Shown here: positions 15,072 to 20,843 of the stretch, one piece after another
Layout: every line of letters begins with the position of its first letter
Position numbering within the stretch: position 1 is the stretch's first letter
Source: Tautonia plasticadhaerens
Lineage (GTDB): Bacteria; Planctomycetota; Planctomycetia; Isosphaerales; Isosphaeraceae
Reading direction: 5' to 3'
NCBI RefSeq assembly: GCF_007752535.1
Contig: NZ_CP036426.1
Span: forward strand, 7,254,001 to 7,318,000
DNA length: 64,000 nucleotides
Position numbers and translations under genes: made by a program
The notes under the pieces: model-generated
Told to the model about the DNA's origin: nothing
What the model saw: the letters and a program-made list of their open reading frames with translations, nothing else
Databases searched by the model: none

Positions 15072-16106
15072 TCAGCTTACCGATCCCCCCCGCCCCGGCA
15101 AGGCCGAATTCCCGCTGCCGGGCCCCGGCAGCCCTCCCGGGACGTCCCTCGACAGGCTCGCGACCCGGAGCCGGCTCCGACTCCTCCGAAGCCGATCGGC
15201 CCGATCCAGCCGCCTCGCGTGCTCCAGGGAGATCGGCCGGAACCGGATCGGCCTGCCCGGCCTCGCCTGGGCCAGCCGGCGGAGGTCGACCGAGACGACG
15301 TGGGCCACATACGGGTATCCCCCCATCGTGCCGCAGGCCACGCCGAGGACGATCGGCCTGCCGCCTGACACCTGCACCGCCCCGGGGGAGACGGGGACCG
15401 ACAACCGATCGGCAAGGGCCGACACGCCCACCTCCGGACCGTCCAGTCGGAGCCCCATCCGGTCGCTCTCCGGCAGGACCTCGAAAGCGTGACGGTGCCA
15501 TCGGCGGTCGTCCAGCAGCCCGGCATCGGGCCCGTCGACGACCCGGATCGGCGCCTCGTCGTCGACCGGGTCGATCACGTCCGGCCCGGGCCACCGCACC
15601 GGAGACCATCCCGGGACGGCGGGCAAGACGTCCCCCGGGCGGATCGGACGCTCCTCGGATCGGCTCCCGAGCACGACCGGCGACCGCCAACCTCCCCGGA
15701 CCGCCAGGTAGGTCCGGACCCCCGAGGCCGCCCCGCCGAGTTCCAGCACGTCCCCGGCCCGCATCCCGAAGGCGATCGGGGGCGAGAACCGGCGGGGGGA
15801 ACCATCGGTCCCCCTCCGGGTCGCCGGCATCGGCGCCCCGGCCAGGGCCACCGCCAGGGGGACCTCGGCCCGGAAGGAACCGCCGAAGAGGGTCAGTTCG
15901 AGGCTCGCCGCCTCGGGACCGTTGCCGACCATCGCGTTCGCCAGCGCGTGGCTCGGCAGGTCGAAGGCCCCTCCCTCGGGCACCCCTCGGTGTCGGTGCC
16001 CGGGGCGTCCGAGGTCCTGGACCCTCCCCCCCACGCCGGCCCGGAGGACGGTCAACGCCCCGATGGCCTCCCCGTCATCGACGGCGACATCGACCGCCGA
16101 CCTCAC
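15072..16106 (-). CDS. pxpC: 5-oxoprolinase subunit PxpC (biotin-dependent carboxyltransferase family)
   Basis: 344 residues, the usual size. The start of the conserved domain is clear: LTVLRAGVGGRVQDLGRPG followed by GVPEGGAFD and ANAMVGNG. The C-terminal region contains SVDLRRLAQARPGRPIRF. PxpA, PxpB and PxpC together are known to form the ATP-dependent prokaryotic 5-oxoprolinase that opens 5-oxoproline to glutamate. The gene starts with GTG at 16106, whose GTGA overlaps the stop of pxpA, a typical translationally coupled junction. Its partner pxpB is not adjacent but lies upstream beyond a rhomboid gene. Confidence 0.92.
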   Translation of the reverse strand: MRSAVDVAVDDGEAIGALTVLRAGVGGRVQDLGRPGHRHRGVPEGGAFDLPSHALANAMVGNGPEAASLELTLFGGSFRAEVPLAVALAGAPMPATRRGTDGSPRRFSPPIAFGMRAGDVLELGGAASGVRTYLAVRGGWRSPVVLGSRSEERPIRPGDVLPAVPGWSPVRWPGPDVIDPVDDEAPIRVVDGPDAGLLDDRRWHRHAFEVLPESDRMGLRLDGPEVGVSALADRLSVPVSPGAVQVSGGRPIVLGVACGTMGGYPYVAHVVSVDLRRLAQARPGRPIRFRPISLEHARRLDRADRLRRSRSRLRVASLSRDVPGGLPGPGSGNSALPGRGGSVS

Positions 16107-16831
16107 TCCTCGAAGCTCCGCACCACCACCCCCGCCCCGGACAGGGCCGAGCGGATCCGGTCGGCCAGGGCCACCGCCCTGGGGTCATCCCCGTGCAGGC
16201 AGATCGTCTCGACCCGGCCCCGATCGACCAGGGCCAGGACCTGTGCCACCACCTCCGCCGGATCCTCGATCACCGCCCCGGGCTCCGATCGGGGCACGAG
16301 CGAGCCGTCGTCCCGGGTCCGACGGTCCGCGAACCCTTCGGGCACGAACCGGAGCCCCGAGGCGCGGGCTTTCTCCTCCAGCACGCCGCCGGGCAGCCCG
16401 AGGATCGGCAGGTTTCGGCCGATCAGCGCCGCGATCACCCCGTCGGCGATGGTCGGATCCCGCTGGGCCTGGTTGTAGAGCGCCCCGTGCGGCTTGACGA
16501 ACCGGACCACCGCCCCGGCCTCCGCCGCCCAGGCCTCGAAGCGGTCGAGCTGCTCCCGGACGACCTCCCGCACCTCCTCCCGGGTCGCCGCCCGCTCCCG
16601 ACGCCCGAATCCCTCCCGATCCGGGAATCCCGGGTGGGCCCCGATCGCCACCCCCCTGCCCCGGGCCGCCTCGATGGTCCGGAGGCTGACCTCGCGCCCT
16701 CCCGCGTGGGCCCCGCAGCAGATCACCGCCGAGCTGACCCGATCGAGCAGCGCCTCGTCGTCGGGGAAGCCTTCGCCCAGGTCGGCGTTCAGGTCGATCG
16801 CGAGGGCTCGGTGCGAGGAAGGGACGATCAC
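16103..16831 (-). CDS. pxpA: 5-oxoprolinase subunit PxpA (LamB/YcsF family)
   Basis: 242 residues. The family signature is near the N-terminus (IDLNADLGEGF), followed by SSAVICCGAHAGG, IGAHPGFPDREGFGRR and VKPHGALYNQ, and ends with ETICLHGDDPRAVALADRIR. By family knowledge this subunit works with PxpB and PxpC to cleave 5-oxoproline, a waste product of glutamine and glutamate cyclisation. The start is GTG at 16831 with GGAG about nine bases before it; there is no suitable ATG. The end overlaps pxpC by four bases. The gap to the upstream rhomboid gene is about 80 bases. Confidence 0.93.
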   Translation of the reverse strand: MIVPSSHRALAIDLNADLGEGFPDDEALLDRVSSAVICCGAHAGGREVSLRTIEAARGRGVAIGAHPGFPDREGFGRRERAATREEVREVVREQLDRFEAWAAEAGAVVRFVKPHGALYNQAQRDPTIADGVIAALIGRNLPILGLPGGVLEEKARASGLRFVPEGFADRRTRDDGSLVPRSEPGAVIEDPAEVVAQVLALVDRGRVETICLHGDDPRAVALADRIRSALSGAGVVVRSFEE

Positions 16832-16912: not shown

Positions 16913-18178
16913 TCAATCATCCCCCTCGACTTCCAGGACTCCTTCGGCCTTCAACTCCTCGGCGCGTCGGAGCAGTCGCGACCGGAGGGCCTCCAGGTTC
17001 TCGGGAAGGGCTCCGGCGGGGATCGGCTCCAGGATCCTCGACGCGGCGAGGGGACGTTCCTGGCGATCGATCAGGAACTGGGCCAGCCGGAGCCGGACGC
17101 GATGGGCCCGGGAGGGATGACGGGCGATGAACTCGCGCATCGGGCCGACGGCCTCGGCCTCGAGCCCCTGCTCCAGCAGGACCCGGATCAGCCGGAGGTG
17201 CTCCGCCTCCTCCAGCCGGTAGCCCGGCAGGAGGTCGACCGCCTTCAGGTGGGCCTGCAGGGCGGCCGTCGCCATCTGCTGGTCGAGCATGTGAGCCACC
17301 CGGCGCCGGGCGTCGGCGATCCGCGCCTCCGACGGGAGCCCCGACCCGCCCCCTCCTCGCCCGACCGGGACCGGCGTCGAGCCCTCGGGCTCGGTCCCGG
17401 CCCGCTCGATCCGTCCCGTCGGGGCCGGATCTCGTCGCTTCCCCGCCTTCGGGGTCCAGTCTCGTCGAGTCGAACCGGTCCCCGACTTCCGGGCCAGCCG
17501 CCGCTTGCGACGGAGCGAGAACAGGTCCCAGTCCTCGCAGTCGACGAGGTTCGACCGCACCAGGACCGTCCCCAGCAGCAGGCCCCAGATCGCCCCCGTC
17601 GCATGACCGAGGGCCGAGGAGAGCGTCAGCCCGGTGAAGAAGAGCGAGGCGAACTCCCAGCCGATGTAGAAGATCGCGAAGAGGTAGATGGCCACCTCCT
17701 TCACGCCCGTGAGGATCCGGAAGCCGACGAAGAGCAGGTAGAAGACCGACAGCTCGTTCCTCGGCGCCCAGATCAGGACCATCCCCATCAGCCCGTAGAT
17801 CACCCCCGAGGCCCCCAGGGCGTAATCCGGGTCGGCCCCCAGCAGGGTCGCCTGGATCGCGGCCCCGGCGAGCACCTCCAGGCCGAGGTAGATCCCCAGG
17901 AAGGCGAGCAGCCCCACCTTCCCCTCGACGATCAGCCCGAAGGACCAGAGGAAGATCATGTTCCCGGCCAGGTGGAAGACGTCGGCGTGCAGGAAGCCGT
18001 GCGAGATCCACTGGAGCGGCCGGACCCCCTGGCCGACGGCGAGCTGGTAGCGCTCCCAGTCCTCCTGCCCGAAGTACTCCAGCGAGGCGAAGAAGGCGGC
18101 CACGTTCAGCACGATCAGGCCGATCGTGCCGATCGGTCGGTGGTAGATCGGGGCGTCGGTCCCGAGCGGGAAGATCAT
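16913..18178 (-). CDS. Rhomboid-family intramembrane serine protease with soluble C-terminal extension
   Basis: 421 residues. The first 215 form the rhomboid core with about six membrane segments. Visible signatures are HLAGN (H69, N73), the catalytic serine in GASG (S124) and the catalytic histidine in SALGHATG (H192). After the membrane domain comes a basic linker (RRKRRLARK), a disordered arginine- and proline-rich segment, and about 130 helical residues (RRVAHMLDQQMATAALQAHL onward) resembling TPR-like repeats. Rhomboids cut transmembrane helices of substrate proteins; the substrate is unknown. It lies between pxpB and pxpA on the same strand with gaps of about 80 bases, an unusual insertion in a pxp cluster. 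Confidence 0.9.
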   Translation of the reverse strand: MIFPLGTDAPIYHRPIGTIGLIVLNVAAFFASLEYFGQEDWERYQLAVGQGVRPLQWISHGFLHADVFHLAGNMIFLWSFGLIVEGKVGLLAFLGIYLGLEVLAGAAIQATLLGADPDYALGASGVIYGLMGMVLIWAPRNELSVFYLLFVGFRILTGVKEVAIYLFAIFYIGWEFASLFFTGLTLSSALGHATGAIWGLLLGTVLVRSNLVDCEDWDLFSLRRKRRLARKSGTGSTRRDWTPKAGKRRDPAPTGRIERAGTEPEGSTPVPVGRGGGGSGLPSEARIADARRRVAHMLDQQMATAALQAHLKAVDLLPGYRLEEAEHLRLIRVLLEQGLEAEAVGPMREFIARHPSRAHRVRLRLAQFLIDRQERPLAASRILEPIPAGALPENLEALRSRLLRRAEELKAEGVLEVEGDD

Positions 18179-18255
18179 CTGACAGCGGCCTCCGGCTCCG
18201 AGCCGCCCCGGGCCCGCCCGGGTCGCGACCCAGGCATCGTATCATGTCGAGGCGA

Positions 18256-18945
18256 TCACGTCCCGACGGCGCCCACCGCCTCGTCGTCGAGCAGGAGGCC
18301 CCGCAAGGCCTCGAACCGGCCGGGGCCGATCGGCTCGAAGCGGACCCGGTCCCCGACCCCCATCGCGAAATAGCCCCGGGCCGGATCCGCCAGGACCACC
18401 GGCGTCCTCCCGATCAGGTGCCAGCCCCCCGGCGATTCCCCCGGGTAGATCCCCGTCTGTTGCCCCGCAATCGCCACCGACCCGGCCGGGACCCTGGCCC
18501 GAGGGTGGGCCCTCCTCGGCAGGCCGGAGAGCGGCCCGGGGAGTTCCCCCAGGTAGGGGAAGCCCGGCAGGAAGCCGATCGCCCGGACCGTGTACCCGGT
18601 CCCGGCATGAGTCCGGATGACCTCCTCCACCGTCAGGCCGACTCGATCGGCCACCTCGGCCAGATCCTCGCCGTCGTAGAGCACCGGCACCCGGACCGAC
18701 CGGCCGACGGCCGATCGCCCGCCCGGGACCGGCTCGGCCATGAGATTCGCCTCGATCGCGTCCAGGTCGTCCGCGTCCCGGGCCGCGAAGACCGCCGCCG
18801 AGCGATATGCGGCGACCACGTCCGCCACGCCCGGCCACCGGCGTTCCCGCACCGCCTCGGCCCAGGCCGCGGCGTCCCGGGTCGTCTCGAACCGGGCCAG
18901 CCACGCCCGGTCCCCCATCGGAGACAATTCCGGTCCCCCTCCCAT
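18256..18945 (-). CDS. pxpB: 5-oxoprolinase subunit PxpB (KipI family)
   Basis: 229 residues. The KipI-type N-terminus is visible (LSPMGDRAWLARFE), then VRVPVLYDGEDLAEVADRVG, the conserved core GFLPGFPYLGELPGPL, PRARVPAGSVAIAGQQTGIY and GGWHLIGRTP. With PxpA and PxpC it forms the ATP-dependent 5-oxoprolinase. The ATG at 18945 gives the usual short lead before the conserved region; an internal ATG at 18918 would cut into it. The gene starts six bases after the stop of the selenoprotein candidate, so both are probably on one transcript. Confidence 0.92.
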   Translation of the reverse strand: MGGGPELSPMGDRAWLARFETTRDAAAWAEAVRERRWPGVADVVAAYRSAAVFAARDADDLDAIEANLMAEPVPGGRSAVGRSVRVPVLYDGEDLAEVADRVGLTVEEVIRTHAGTGYTVRAIGFLPGFPYLGELPGPLSGLPRRAHPRARVPAGSVAIAGQQTGIYPGESPGGWHLIGRTPVVLADPARGYFAMGVGDRVRFEPIGPGRFEALRGLLLDDEAVGAVGT

Positions 18946-18951
18946 CCGCGA

Positions 18952-19542
18952 TCACTCGCCCGAGGGCTCGCCGCCCCTCGGCGGGGGGGAGGCGAAGTAG
19001 TTCGGGTCGGCCAGGCCGAAGGCGTCGGCCACCCGGTTGAAGAACGCGAACAACGCCGCGATGTAGACGCACTCGGCGAGCTGCTCGTCGGCCCAGCCGA
19101 CCTGCCGGAGCGACTCCACCTGCTCGTCGGTGACCCGGTAGGCATGCCTGGTGATCGTCTCGACGAACCGAAGGAGGGCACGCTCGGCCTCGGGGAACGG
19201 GGCGCCGTCGAGGTCGGCCCGGGAGAGGTGGTCGTGGACGGAGGGGTCGGGTTCCTGCAACTGCAGGAAGAAGGCATGCGACCCCGTTCAGTAGGGGCAC
19301 TGGTTCAGGGCCGAGACGTAGGTGGCGATCATCTCCTTCTGCCGCCTCGTCAGGTGTCCCTCGGAGAACTGCAGACGCTCGGAGAATCCCACCACGTCCC
19401 GGAAGAAGTCGGGCCTCAGGCTGAAACACTTCAGGATGCCCGGGATCTTGGGCCGTCCCGGGTTGGCCGCCTTCCAGGCCGAGTAGGCGTCGGCGATCTC
19501 CCCGCCGGCCTCGTCCTCGGGGATCCACCGGATCCGAGCCAT
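18952..19542 (-). CDS. AhpD-like peroxidase-related protein with in-frame TGA: candidate selenoprotein (CxxU)
   Basis: Read through the TGA at 19288-19290, this is a 196-residue protein of the AhpD/carboxymuconolactone-decarboxylase superfamily (peroxidase-related branch). The first half runs MARIRWIPEDEAGGEIADAY ... EMIATYVSALNQCPY. Then TGA, then TGSHAFFLQLQEPD ... VYIAALFAFFNRVADAFGL in the same frame. AhpD proteins use a CxxC-x3-H redox site; here the residues are C82, position 85 (TGA) and H89, so TGA falls exactly on the catalytic cysteine. A SECIS-like hairpin follows at once. I read position 85 as selenocysteine. The ATG at 19542 (or 19545) has GAGGTG before it. Expected role, from family knowledge, is thiol- or selenol-based peroxide reduction. 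Confidence 0.83.
19243..19287 (-). promoter_or_regulatory. Candidate bacterial SECIS element
   Basis: Directly after the TGA on the minus strand the RNA can pair in two stacked helices. The outer stem is GGGGUCG (19285-19279) with CGACCCC (19249-19243). The inner stem is UUCCUGC (19269-19263) with GCAGGAA (19258-19252). The apical loop is AGUU (19262-19259), with G at its second position followed by U, 25 bases after the UGA. Known bacterial SECIS elements lie inside the coding sequence just after UGA and carry a G in the first two loop positions. Both stems are perfect 7-pair helices. Confidence 0.7.
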
Positions 19543-19625
19543 CATGCACCTCGGGCCTGTAGAATGCAGGGGAGAACACGGCATCCGGGACGAGTCTACC
19601 CGAGGAGACCCGTCGGAGGAATGAG

Positions 19626-20843
19626 ATGTTCCGGCCCCTCGCCCTCCTCGTGCTCGTCCTCGGCCCGACCCCGACCGCCGTCGAGGATCCCGGCACCATC
19701 GCCGCCGACCGCGTCGTCCTCCGGGACGGGACGACCCTGCTCGGCCAGGTCTCGCCCACGCGATCGACCCGGGTCGAGGTGGTCGTCCGCCGCTCCTGGG
19801 TCGAGCAGCTCGAGCCCGGTCGACTCGTCGAATGGGAGGCCCTCGACCGCCGGGCCCGGCACCGTGCCCGGGCCAATCGGCTCGACCGCCTCCGCCGCTG
19901 GAGGGAGGATCGCCGCTCGATGGCCGAGATCGGCCCCGACCCGATCGCCGAGTGGCTCGACGGGGAGCTCGATCGGCTCTCCGGGATGGCCGATGCGGCC
20001 TCATCCCCGCTCATGGTCGTCTCGGTCGACCGCCGCGACGTGACCCGGGTCGAATCCCAGGCCGAGGACCGCCGCCGGATGCTCCGCCAGGGCTGGAGGG
20101 CCGGGTTCGATGACGTGGAGACGATGCCGCTCGACCGCCTCCGGGCCGGGCTCCAGGCCCGGGGGTTCGCCATCGGCGACATCGACCCGGCGCCGATCGA
20201 CGACCTGCTCCCGACACCCATCGAGTCCGACCGCCGATGGCTCGCCCGGCGGGCCAGCACCGAGGTCCTCACCGACCACGACCTCCGGCTTGTCCGCTTC
20301 GGCGACCTCGTCATGCCCGACGCCGGCCCCGGGGGAGCGCAACTCGACCGGGCCCGATTGGCGGGGGTCGTGGGCGACCTCGTCGGCGACCTGCTCGGCG
20401 CCCCGCCTTCGCAGGACCCGATGCGGCCCCTACTGGGTCGGATCGAGGCCTCGGGCCGGGTCGGGGCGGTACTGACCAGCCTGGAGGTCTCCCAGGACCT
20501 CGACCGGGTGGCCGTCGAGTCGGTCCTGCTCGTCCGGACGGGCCCGGCCCGATGGGAGCGGGCCGCCTGGAGACGGGCCGAGGCCAGCACCGCCGATCTC
20601 CCCGCCGACGCCGGCCGGGAACTGGCCCGGGATCCCCAGATCCAGTCCGCCTTCGACCTGCTCCAGGGCCTCGGCATCGGCGGGGCCGATCCTCAGGCGA
20701 AACGGCTCGGCCTGGCCGTCGGCGCCGCCACGCAGCAGGCGATGGCCCGGGCCGGAGCGGCCCTCGACGCCGACCTCCGGTCGGCCGCACTTCGGCTCGA
20801 CCGGCCGGACGCCTCCCAGCCCCCGGGCGAGAGACCGCGTTGA
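19626..20843 (+). CDS. Predicted secreted protein, function unknown
   Basis: 405 residues with a short signal-like N-terminus (FRPLALLVLVLGPTPTAVE) and no lipobox. Near the start is a small beta-like motif (RVVLRDGTTLLGQV). The rest is arginine- and leucine-rich, apparently helical (RANRLDRLRRWREDRRS; RDPQIQSAFDLLQGLGIGGA), without cysteines or recognisable catalytic motifs. I do not recognise a family. The ATG at 19626 has GGAGGA eight bases before it. It is divergent from the selenoprotein candidate, with about 80 bases between the two starts that must hold both promoters. The downstream fabI gene is on the same strand but about 180 bases away. Confidence 0.72.
   Translation: MFRPLALLVLVLGPTPTAVEDPGTIAADRVVLRDGTTLLGQVSPTRSTRVEVVVRRSWVEQLEPGRLVEWEALDRRARHRARANRLDRLRRWREDRRSMAEIGPDPIAEWLDGELDRLSGMADAASSPLMVVSVDRRDVTRVESQAEDRRRMLRQGWRAGFDDVETMPLDRLRAGLQARGFAIGDIDPAPIDDLLPTPIESDRRWLARRASTEVLTDHDLRLVRFGDLVMPDAGPGGAQLDRARLAGVVGDLVGDLLGAPPSQDPMRPLLGRIEASGRVGAVLTSLEVSQDLDRVAVESVLLVRTGPARWERAAWRRAEASTADLPADAGRELARDPQIQSAFDLLQGLGIGGADPQAKRLGLAVGAATQQAMARAGAALDADLRSAALRLDRPDASQPPGERPR

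Follow-up and report, generated by a model that had tools for sequence, protein, structure and literature searches.

A gene for a predicted AhpD-like selenoprotein with a CxxU site in the planctomycete Tautonia plasticadhaerens

AhpD-like selenoproteins with a CxxU redox motif have been described before. Table 1 of a 2026 review carries an entry "AhpD-like protein, TIGR01926, CxxU," credited to the 2005 Sargasso Sea paper, together with further AhpD/CMD selenoprotein rows (PMC13188914). The 2005 paper reports 27 AhpD-like CxxU sequences (COG2128), and the 2008 GOS paper distinguishes AhpD-like 1 and AhpD-like 2. Prx-like selenoprotein genes have also been recorded as co-located with AhpD-like ones (2008 GOS paper; PMC13188914), and the selenoprotein-operon section of the review contains no AhpD–deiodinase or AhpD–pxp pair (PMC13188914). 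For planctomycetes, Sec genes are reported in the 2016 Porphyra paper, among them complete sets for I. pallida and G. obscuriglobus; its main text makes no mention of AhpD. No paper joining Tautonia and selenocysteine was found in open-licence PMC.

Here, we describe a gene of this type in a 64,000-nucleotide stretch of the T. plasticadhaerens genome, referred to as the window. A preliminary description, made from the letters alone, had read the gene as an AhpD-like selenoprotein and had remarked that such proteins were noted before. The remark is correct: because TIGR01926 CxxU is an already listed selenoprotein family, the protein adds one more member to it, and the novelty lies in its host and gene context, not in the kind of protein. 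We estimate, from sequence comparison, a probability of about 0.93 that an AhpD-like selenoprotein with a redox-type site is encoded at this locus; insertion of Sec at the internal UGA, judged on the same kind of data, appears close to certain.

Reading frame and conservation of the UGA codon

18952..19542, minus strand: AhpD-like (TIGR01926 / CMD fold) predicted selenoprotein gene, 196 residues including one Sec, plus the stop codon TGA
19288..19290, minus strand: in-frame UGA codon, predicted Sec, residue U85 counted from the ATG at 19542 and U86 from the ATG at 19545

The gene begins at ATG 19542..19540, with an alternative ATG at 19545..19543, and closes with the TGA at 18954..18952. It consists of 84 sense codons, the internal TGA (19290..19288), and 111 codons up to the stop, giving a read-through translation of MARIRW...SALNQCPY-U-TGSHAF...FGLADPNYF..., with the residues ...KEMIATYVSALNQCPY-U-TGSHAFFLQLQEP... 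around the UGA. A plain list of open reading frames divides the gene into two halves, one ending at NQCPY and the other a TTG-start frame of 102 amino acids (18952..19260), so that a conserved redox enzyme would be overlooked. The preliminary description had 84 codons followed by TGA, which stands; its 102 further codons correspond to the TTG-start frame, the actual second half being 111 codons long, and the strand had been left unstated. The two halves form one protein, because the Pfam CMD match crosses the TGA (residues 45–91 from ATG 19545, 52 bits versus a cut-off of 23) and TIGR01926, "peroxidase-related enzyme," covers residues 22–178 with 96.7 bits (cut-off 81.8; E 1.3e-27). TIGR01926 also matches 39 of 39 members of alignment A2 at a threshold of E <= 1e-5, which is not the family cut-off. 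Two further models score under their cut-offs: NF041238 (AhpD_rel_CFYUT) with 69 bits versus 175, and NF053654 (GroundWater_YciW (seleno)protein) with 28.5 bits versus 310. The internal TGA takes the place of the second cysteine in the CxxC-x3-H motif (CPY-U-TGSH), with the histidine at the expected distance, as had been proposed at the outset.

A stop codon that interrupts a frame could also indicate a pseudogene, cut at codon 85 by a nonsense mutation or a sequencing error. Conservation of the codon leaves this explanation with a negligible probability. A search of 118 genomes, including the host, yielded 27 with a match at E <= 1e-20 (host counted), and the aligned codon in these is TGA in 21 and TGC in 6. 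In a second set of named loci, the best 80 of 181 found via conserved peptides and sharing some genomes with the first, the codon is TGA in 78 and TGC in 2 (L107 and L110), numbers in which Cys forms may be under-counted because the loci are the best 80 of 181. Going by their titles, the taxa among these best 80 of 181 are 42 planctomycetes, 32 Acidobacteriota, among which we count Occallatibacter and Angelobacter by assumption, and 6 labelled otherwise or as "bacterium"; the closest named relative among them is Tautonia sociabilis (L072), at 85% identity. The aligned homologues are 45%–85% identical to the AhpD-like protein and have sense codons on either side of the TGA. TGC is the sole alternative codon seen, no residue other than U or C occupies the Sec position among the correctly framed homologues inspected, and N169 and R170, beyond the UGA, are invariant in 39 rows. 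The in-frame UGA aligns with the Cys of homologues, the relationship by which a bacterial selenoprotein is recognized. The preliminary description had considered a chance nonsense mutation unlikely and had looked to position 85 and the state of the second half for confirmation; both the codon counts and the second half, which is conserved, agree with it.

Selenocysteine machinery and a SECIS-like hairpin

Judged by its gene content, the organism can read UGA as selenocysteine. In the 9.4-Mb genome, selA (513 bits) adjoins selB (348.5 bits), and selD (351.8 bits; G000:C1:1193090-1194028, L010) has an in-frame TGA of its own at NCAG-U-AGKL, past which the fold of the next 57 nt contains a GC-rich hairpin whose tip reads GUC; all three matches are over the respective cut-offs. 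A tRNA-Sec (selC) scores 65.9 bits against an Rfam gathering score of 47, and ARAGORN calls it SeC with anticodon TCA. Four host sequences exceed the Rfam score, the other three being Ser, Leu, and Ser tRNAs, and the score is passed in 5 of 14 control genomes; it is therefore not specific by itself, and the anticodon decides. In the same 14 controls, the selB and selD models give matches below the cut-off in all and above it in 2, and selA matches in 4, above the cut-off in 1. The four genes that the preliminary description had proposed to look for are all found.

The form of the AhpD-like gene follows selA across genomes. A selA match above the cut-off occurs in 21 of 21 UGA genomes versus 1 of 6 Cys genomes (G016), and in 60 of the 118 genomes overall (Fisher p = 7.4e-5 for the association of the UGA form with selA, uncorrected for relatedness). 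Among the remaining five Cys genomes, G068 shows a weaker selA-like match that falls short of the cut-off, while the other four give no match at E <= 0.001. These data bear on the possibility that UGA is read as Cys or Trp, or passed by general stop readthrough, without a Sec system. Cys is indeed the alternative residue in homologues, which would fit such decoding. However, the AhpD-like gene itself terminates with TGA, the genome holds tRNA-Sec with selA, selB, and selD, the UGA form tracks selA, and a SECIS-like hairpin follows the internal UGA; decoding as another amino acid is accordingly very improbable. TGA conservation combined with the Sec machinery led us to reject pseudogene, sequencing error, and codon reassignment as candidates. 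A viral source was also rejected, since none of the 125 pattern matches in a scan of viral contigs was a relative.

19252..19269, minus strand: SECIS-like hairpin UUCCUGC-AGUU-GCAGGAA, apical loop 25 nt past the UGA
19243..19285, minus strand: possible lower stem GGGGUCG / CGACCCC, from a single-sequence fold

The bSECIS model, as outlined in the review, has a loop of 3–9 nt with G in the first two loop positions, a stem of 4–16 bp, a spacing of 16–37 nt, and an energy of <= -7.5 kcal/mol (PMC13188914). The window hairpin lies within these limits, with a 7-bp stem, the 4-nt loop AGUU, a spacing of 25, and -9.6 kcal/mol. Against 200 shuffles, its 60-nt fold is better than all and the 32-nt core better than 198. 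Recoding with synonymous codons matches the stability of the window hairpin in 158 of 5000 trials, so that in the window sequence by itself the hairpin is moderately unusual and no more than suggestive. The lower stem is weaker than the upper hairpin, since among relatives it is nearly whole in L025 alone; it is partial in L026 and L027 and absent from the L028 fold.

The comparative case for a SECIS element is stronger than that from the single sequence. Under the bSECIS rules, an energy of <= -7.5 kcal/mol is reached by 83 of 89 distinct UGA segments (92 of 99 with duplicates) and by none of the 7 distinct Cys segments (0 of 8 with duplicates). The UGA segments that miss the limit are L094, L141, L143, L148, L042, and L044, the last two clearly (-2.7). 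Loops of the planctomycete type among the 89 are AGTT (43) and GGTC (7), and none is AGTC or GGTT; the switch between AGTT and GGTC alters two amino acids, from Gln-Leu to Arg-Ser. The Leu codon in the loop is TTG in 43 of 43 cases. In the rest of the 50 planctomycete-type genes, TTG accounts for 138 of 706 Leu codons, and nine genes of the window use it for 12 of 288. Covariation was assessed in alignment A3, a hand-picked set of 34 of the 50 distinct planctomycete-type segments. Of the cells in its 8-pair helix, 94.1% are paired and 7 cells show a change on both sides, either value being reached by 0 of 500 shuffles, and sliding the helix out of register lowers the paired cells to 38%–71%. 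A-U/G-C and C-G/U-A pairs change jointly, in a compensatory manner. Two other measures are not above shuffles: 40 of 500 have at least as many doubly changed pairs (2), and 374 of 500 at least as many pair types. In Acidobacteria, the hairpin takes the variant form CCTGCG[T/G]GTTCAGG. A clear SECIS consensus is thereby gained for the AhpD-like selenoproteins of planctomycetes and acidobacteria.

Taken with the sel genes, the U or C at the codon, and the conserved second half, the covarying SECIS-like hairpin supports the selenoprotein reading advanced initially. We strongly infer that the host Sec system decodes the UGA by means of this hairpin.

Additional AhpD-like or CMD sequences were seen in related genomes. 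A second, distant group with 37%–43% identity has TGA at a CxxU site (CHYU/CFYU/CKYU) in L041, L042, L044, L045, and L047–L049, five of which (L041, L045, and L047–L049) have a nearer hairpin with a GUU loop; Cys forms of the group are L043, L046, and L050. CRYU-T-D-x-H variants outside the pxp context occur in two genomes of the same family (L036, whose contig is shared with L148, and L040). A CMD-family match in the host (G000:C1:3317721-3317906, L054) has one internal TAG and may be a pseudogene or a frame artefact.

Gene neighbourhoods in planctomycetes and Acidobacteriota

18256..18945, minus strand: pxpB-like gene (PF02682 CT_C_D), next downstream
16913..18178, minus strand: rhomboid-family membrane protein gene (PF01694)
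16103..16831, minus strand: pxpA-like gene (PF03746 LamB_YcsF)
15072..16106, minus strand: pxpC-like gene (PF02626 CT_A_B)
19626..20843, plus strand: divergent 405-aa gene without a Pfam match

These genes were assigned by Pfam and by comparison of 17 loci, namely the window and 16 of the 26 other matched genomes; the divergent gene was placed by the comparison. A pxpB gene lies downstream on the same strand as the AhpD-like gene in 10 of the 17 loci, including L060, where about 0.8 kb separates the two genes and the contig stops shortly beyond. Both pxpA and pxpC follow in 9 of 17 (L060 stops at the contig edge), and the rhomboid gene is present in 3 of 17 (the window, L061, and L063). The other 7 of the 17 loci have no pxp genes around them (in L068 the contig ends 0.8 kb downstream), and pxp linkage occurs within flanks of <= 4 kb in 7 (L072–L077 and L112) of the best 80 of 181 named loci. 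The pxp-adjacent position is therefore real but clade-limited. The preliminary description had put the new element in the position ahead of pxpB; that arrangement is shared by 10 of the 17 loci and was not found in print within open-licence PMC, and it does not extend to the other 7. Of the 17 loci, the 10 that have pxpB are also those with the divergent 405-aa gene as a neighbour; a fabI-like gene lies further on in 9 of these 10. Scans of 18200–19800 for consensus promoters and terminators found none.

The pxp linkage raises the alternative that the protein is a selenoprotein with a role other than peroxide reduction, for instance damage control as a dedicated partner of the 5-oxoprolinase, or some other activity of the CMD fold. 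No obvious redox function attaches to the linked pxp genes, which counts against a peroxidase role, and the CMD fold also takes in the debrominase 6ohi (Z 16.8). Against a 5-oxoprolinase partner, the linkage does not extend beyond a close clade, as the counts above indicate, and pxpB is present in 30 of 44 relatives, several of them without an AhpD-like match at E <= 1e-20. We consider a non-peroxide role unlikely, with a modest share of the probability, and a redox role for the AhpD-like protein the better-founded expectation.

A different arrangement is found in Acidobacteriota. Among the best 80 of 181 named loci, the 32 acidobacterial ones include 14 in which selB precedes the AhpD-like orthologue on the same strand, with selA also present in 11 of the 32 and selD in 10 (some loci end early), and a deiodinase-like gene comes after the orthologue in 16 of 32. 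The order selD-selA-selB followed by the AhpD-like UGA gene was observed in L108, L109, L119, L125, L128, L131, L132, L134, L139, and L145, all except L125 having the deiodinase-like gene downstream, an arrangement that unites recoding machinery with its client genes. The deiodinase-like gene has a TGA at GSYT-U-PPFRREVP in 7 of 9 loci searched; the two without it are the planctomycete-type L079 and L085, in which the gene is upstream of the stretch searched. It is located upstream of the AhpD-like gene in L079, L082, L085, and the Cys-form L107; in three planctomycete-type loci it is immediately upstream. The host genome has one deiodinase-family match, elsewhere, which reads as a Cys form.

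AhpD proteins are adaptors of the partner peroxidase AhpC. By extension, the CxxU AhpD and the deiodinase-like selenoprotein might constitute a two-part, all-selenol peroxidase that travels with its own recoding machinery; in the Isosphaeraceae-type genomes, the AhpD would have moved into the 5-oxoprolinase cluster and the host's deiodinase-like partner would be the Cys form located elsewhere. This is a speculative proposal, and a doubtful one. Within open-licence PMC, as far as titles and the starts of abstracts reveal, no 5-oxoprolinase/selenoprotein link was found and no selDAB-AhpD-deiodinase block is obviously described; neither the pxpB-(rhomboid)-pxpA-pxpC neighbourhood of Isosphaeraceae type nor the selD-selA-selB-AhpD(U)-deiodinase-like neighbourhood of Acidobacteriota was found there. 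The pxp and the selDAB-plus-deiodinase-like neighbourhoods make the function of the AhpD-like selenoprotein family testable.

Predicted fold, active site, and comparison with known systems

The AlphaFold model of the AhpD-like protein (mean pLDDT 95.1) predicts the all-helical AhpD, or "peroxidase-related," fold. The best relative in the PDB is the Deinococcus radiodurans protein 6k40 (VIA Z 22.6, rmsd 2.1 over 182 aligned residues), and further top relatives annotated as "peroxidase-related" or AhpD are 2oyo, 3c1l, 2pfx, and 2prr. With U read as C, all 39 rows keep E70, C82, Y84, U85, and H89 unchanged; these residues form the site E70-x11-C82-x-Y84-U85-x3-H89, with the Glu 12 residues ahead of the first Cys, an arrangement that corresponds to the TIGR01926 site. 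In PA0269, Glu36, Cys48, Tyr50, Cys51, and His55 are described as a proton relay, and the protein as a weak peroxidase (PMC3141380). Because the residue spacing equals that of the PA0269 relay, Sec at U85 would replace the second active-site thiol.

The following mechanism is proposed. UGA 19290..19288 would be decoded as Sec by the host SelA, SelB, SelC, and SelD, directed by the SECIS hairpin within the coding sequence, 25 nt downstream. Activated by E70, H89, and water, the selenolate of U85 may then attack a peroxide or the disulfide of a partner peroxidase. C82 would resolve the intermediate to a selenenylsulfide, which a cellular dithiol could recycle. The protein is likely a selenol-based peroxidase or redox adaptor; a redox activity of one kind or the other, peroxidase or reductase-adaptor, is probable, and homology points to a possible peroxidase activity.

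Compared with known systems, the protein is closest in fold to D. radiodurans 6k40, D. geothermalis 2oyo, and Ralstonia 2prr (Z 21.7–22.6), at 26%–28% identity. 6k40 and 2oyo share the aligned CxxC-x3-H site with the preceding Glu but carry Cys where the AhpD-like protein is predicted to have Sec. Mycobacterium tuberculosis AhpD (1knc, 1gu9) and Pseudomonas aeruginosa PA0269 (2o4d) share the relay residues, their spacing, and the two-helix catalytic core, but differ in chain topology or length and in having Cys (Z 10.7 for 1knc and 16.1 for PA0269). NF041238 (AhpD_rel_CFYUT "(seleno)protein," Sargasso hypothetical protein 1) has a homologous domain and a CxxU site, but the model is 357 positions long, of which the match covers 174–333 with a score under the cut-off. 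The TIGR01926 CxxU selenoprotein of the 2005 Sargasso Sea set belongs to the same NCBIfam family, for which the present protein is above the cut-off, and has the same CxxU motif. That set, compared here by its description, comes from a marine metagenome, whereas the gene described here comes from a planctomycete of Tautonia type, neighbours pxp genes, and has an AGUU/GGUC hairpin that is found across its clade.
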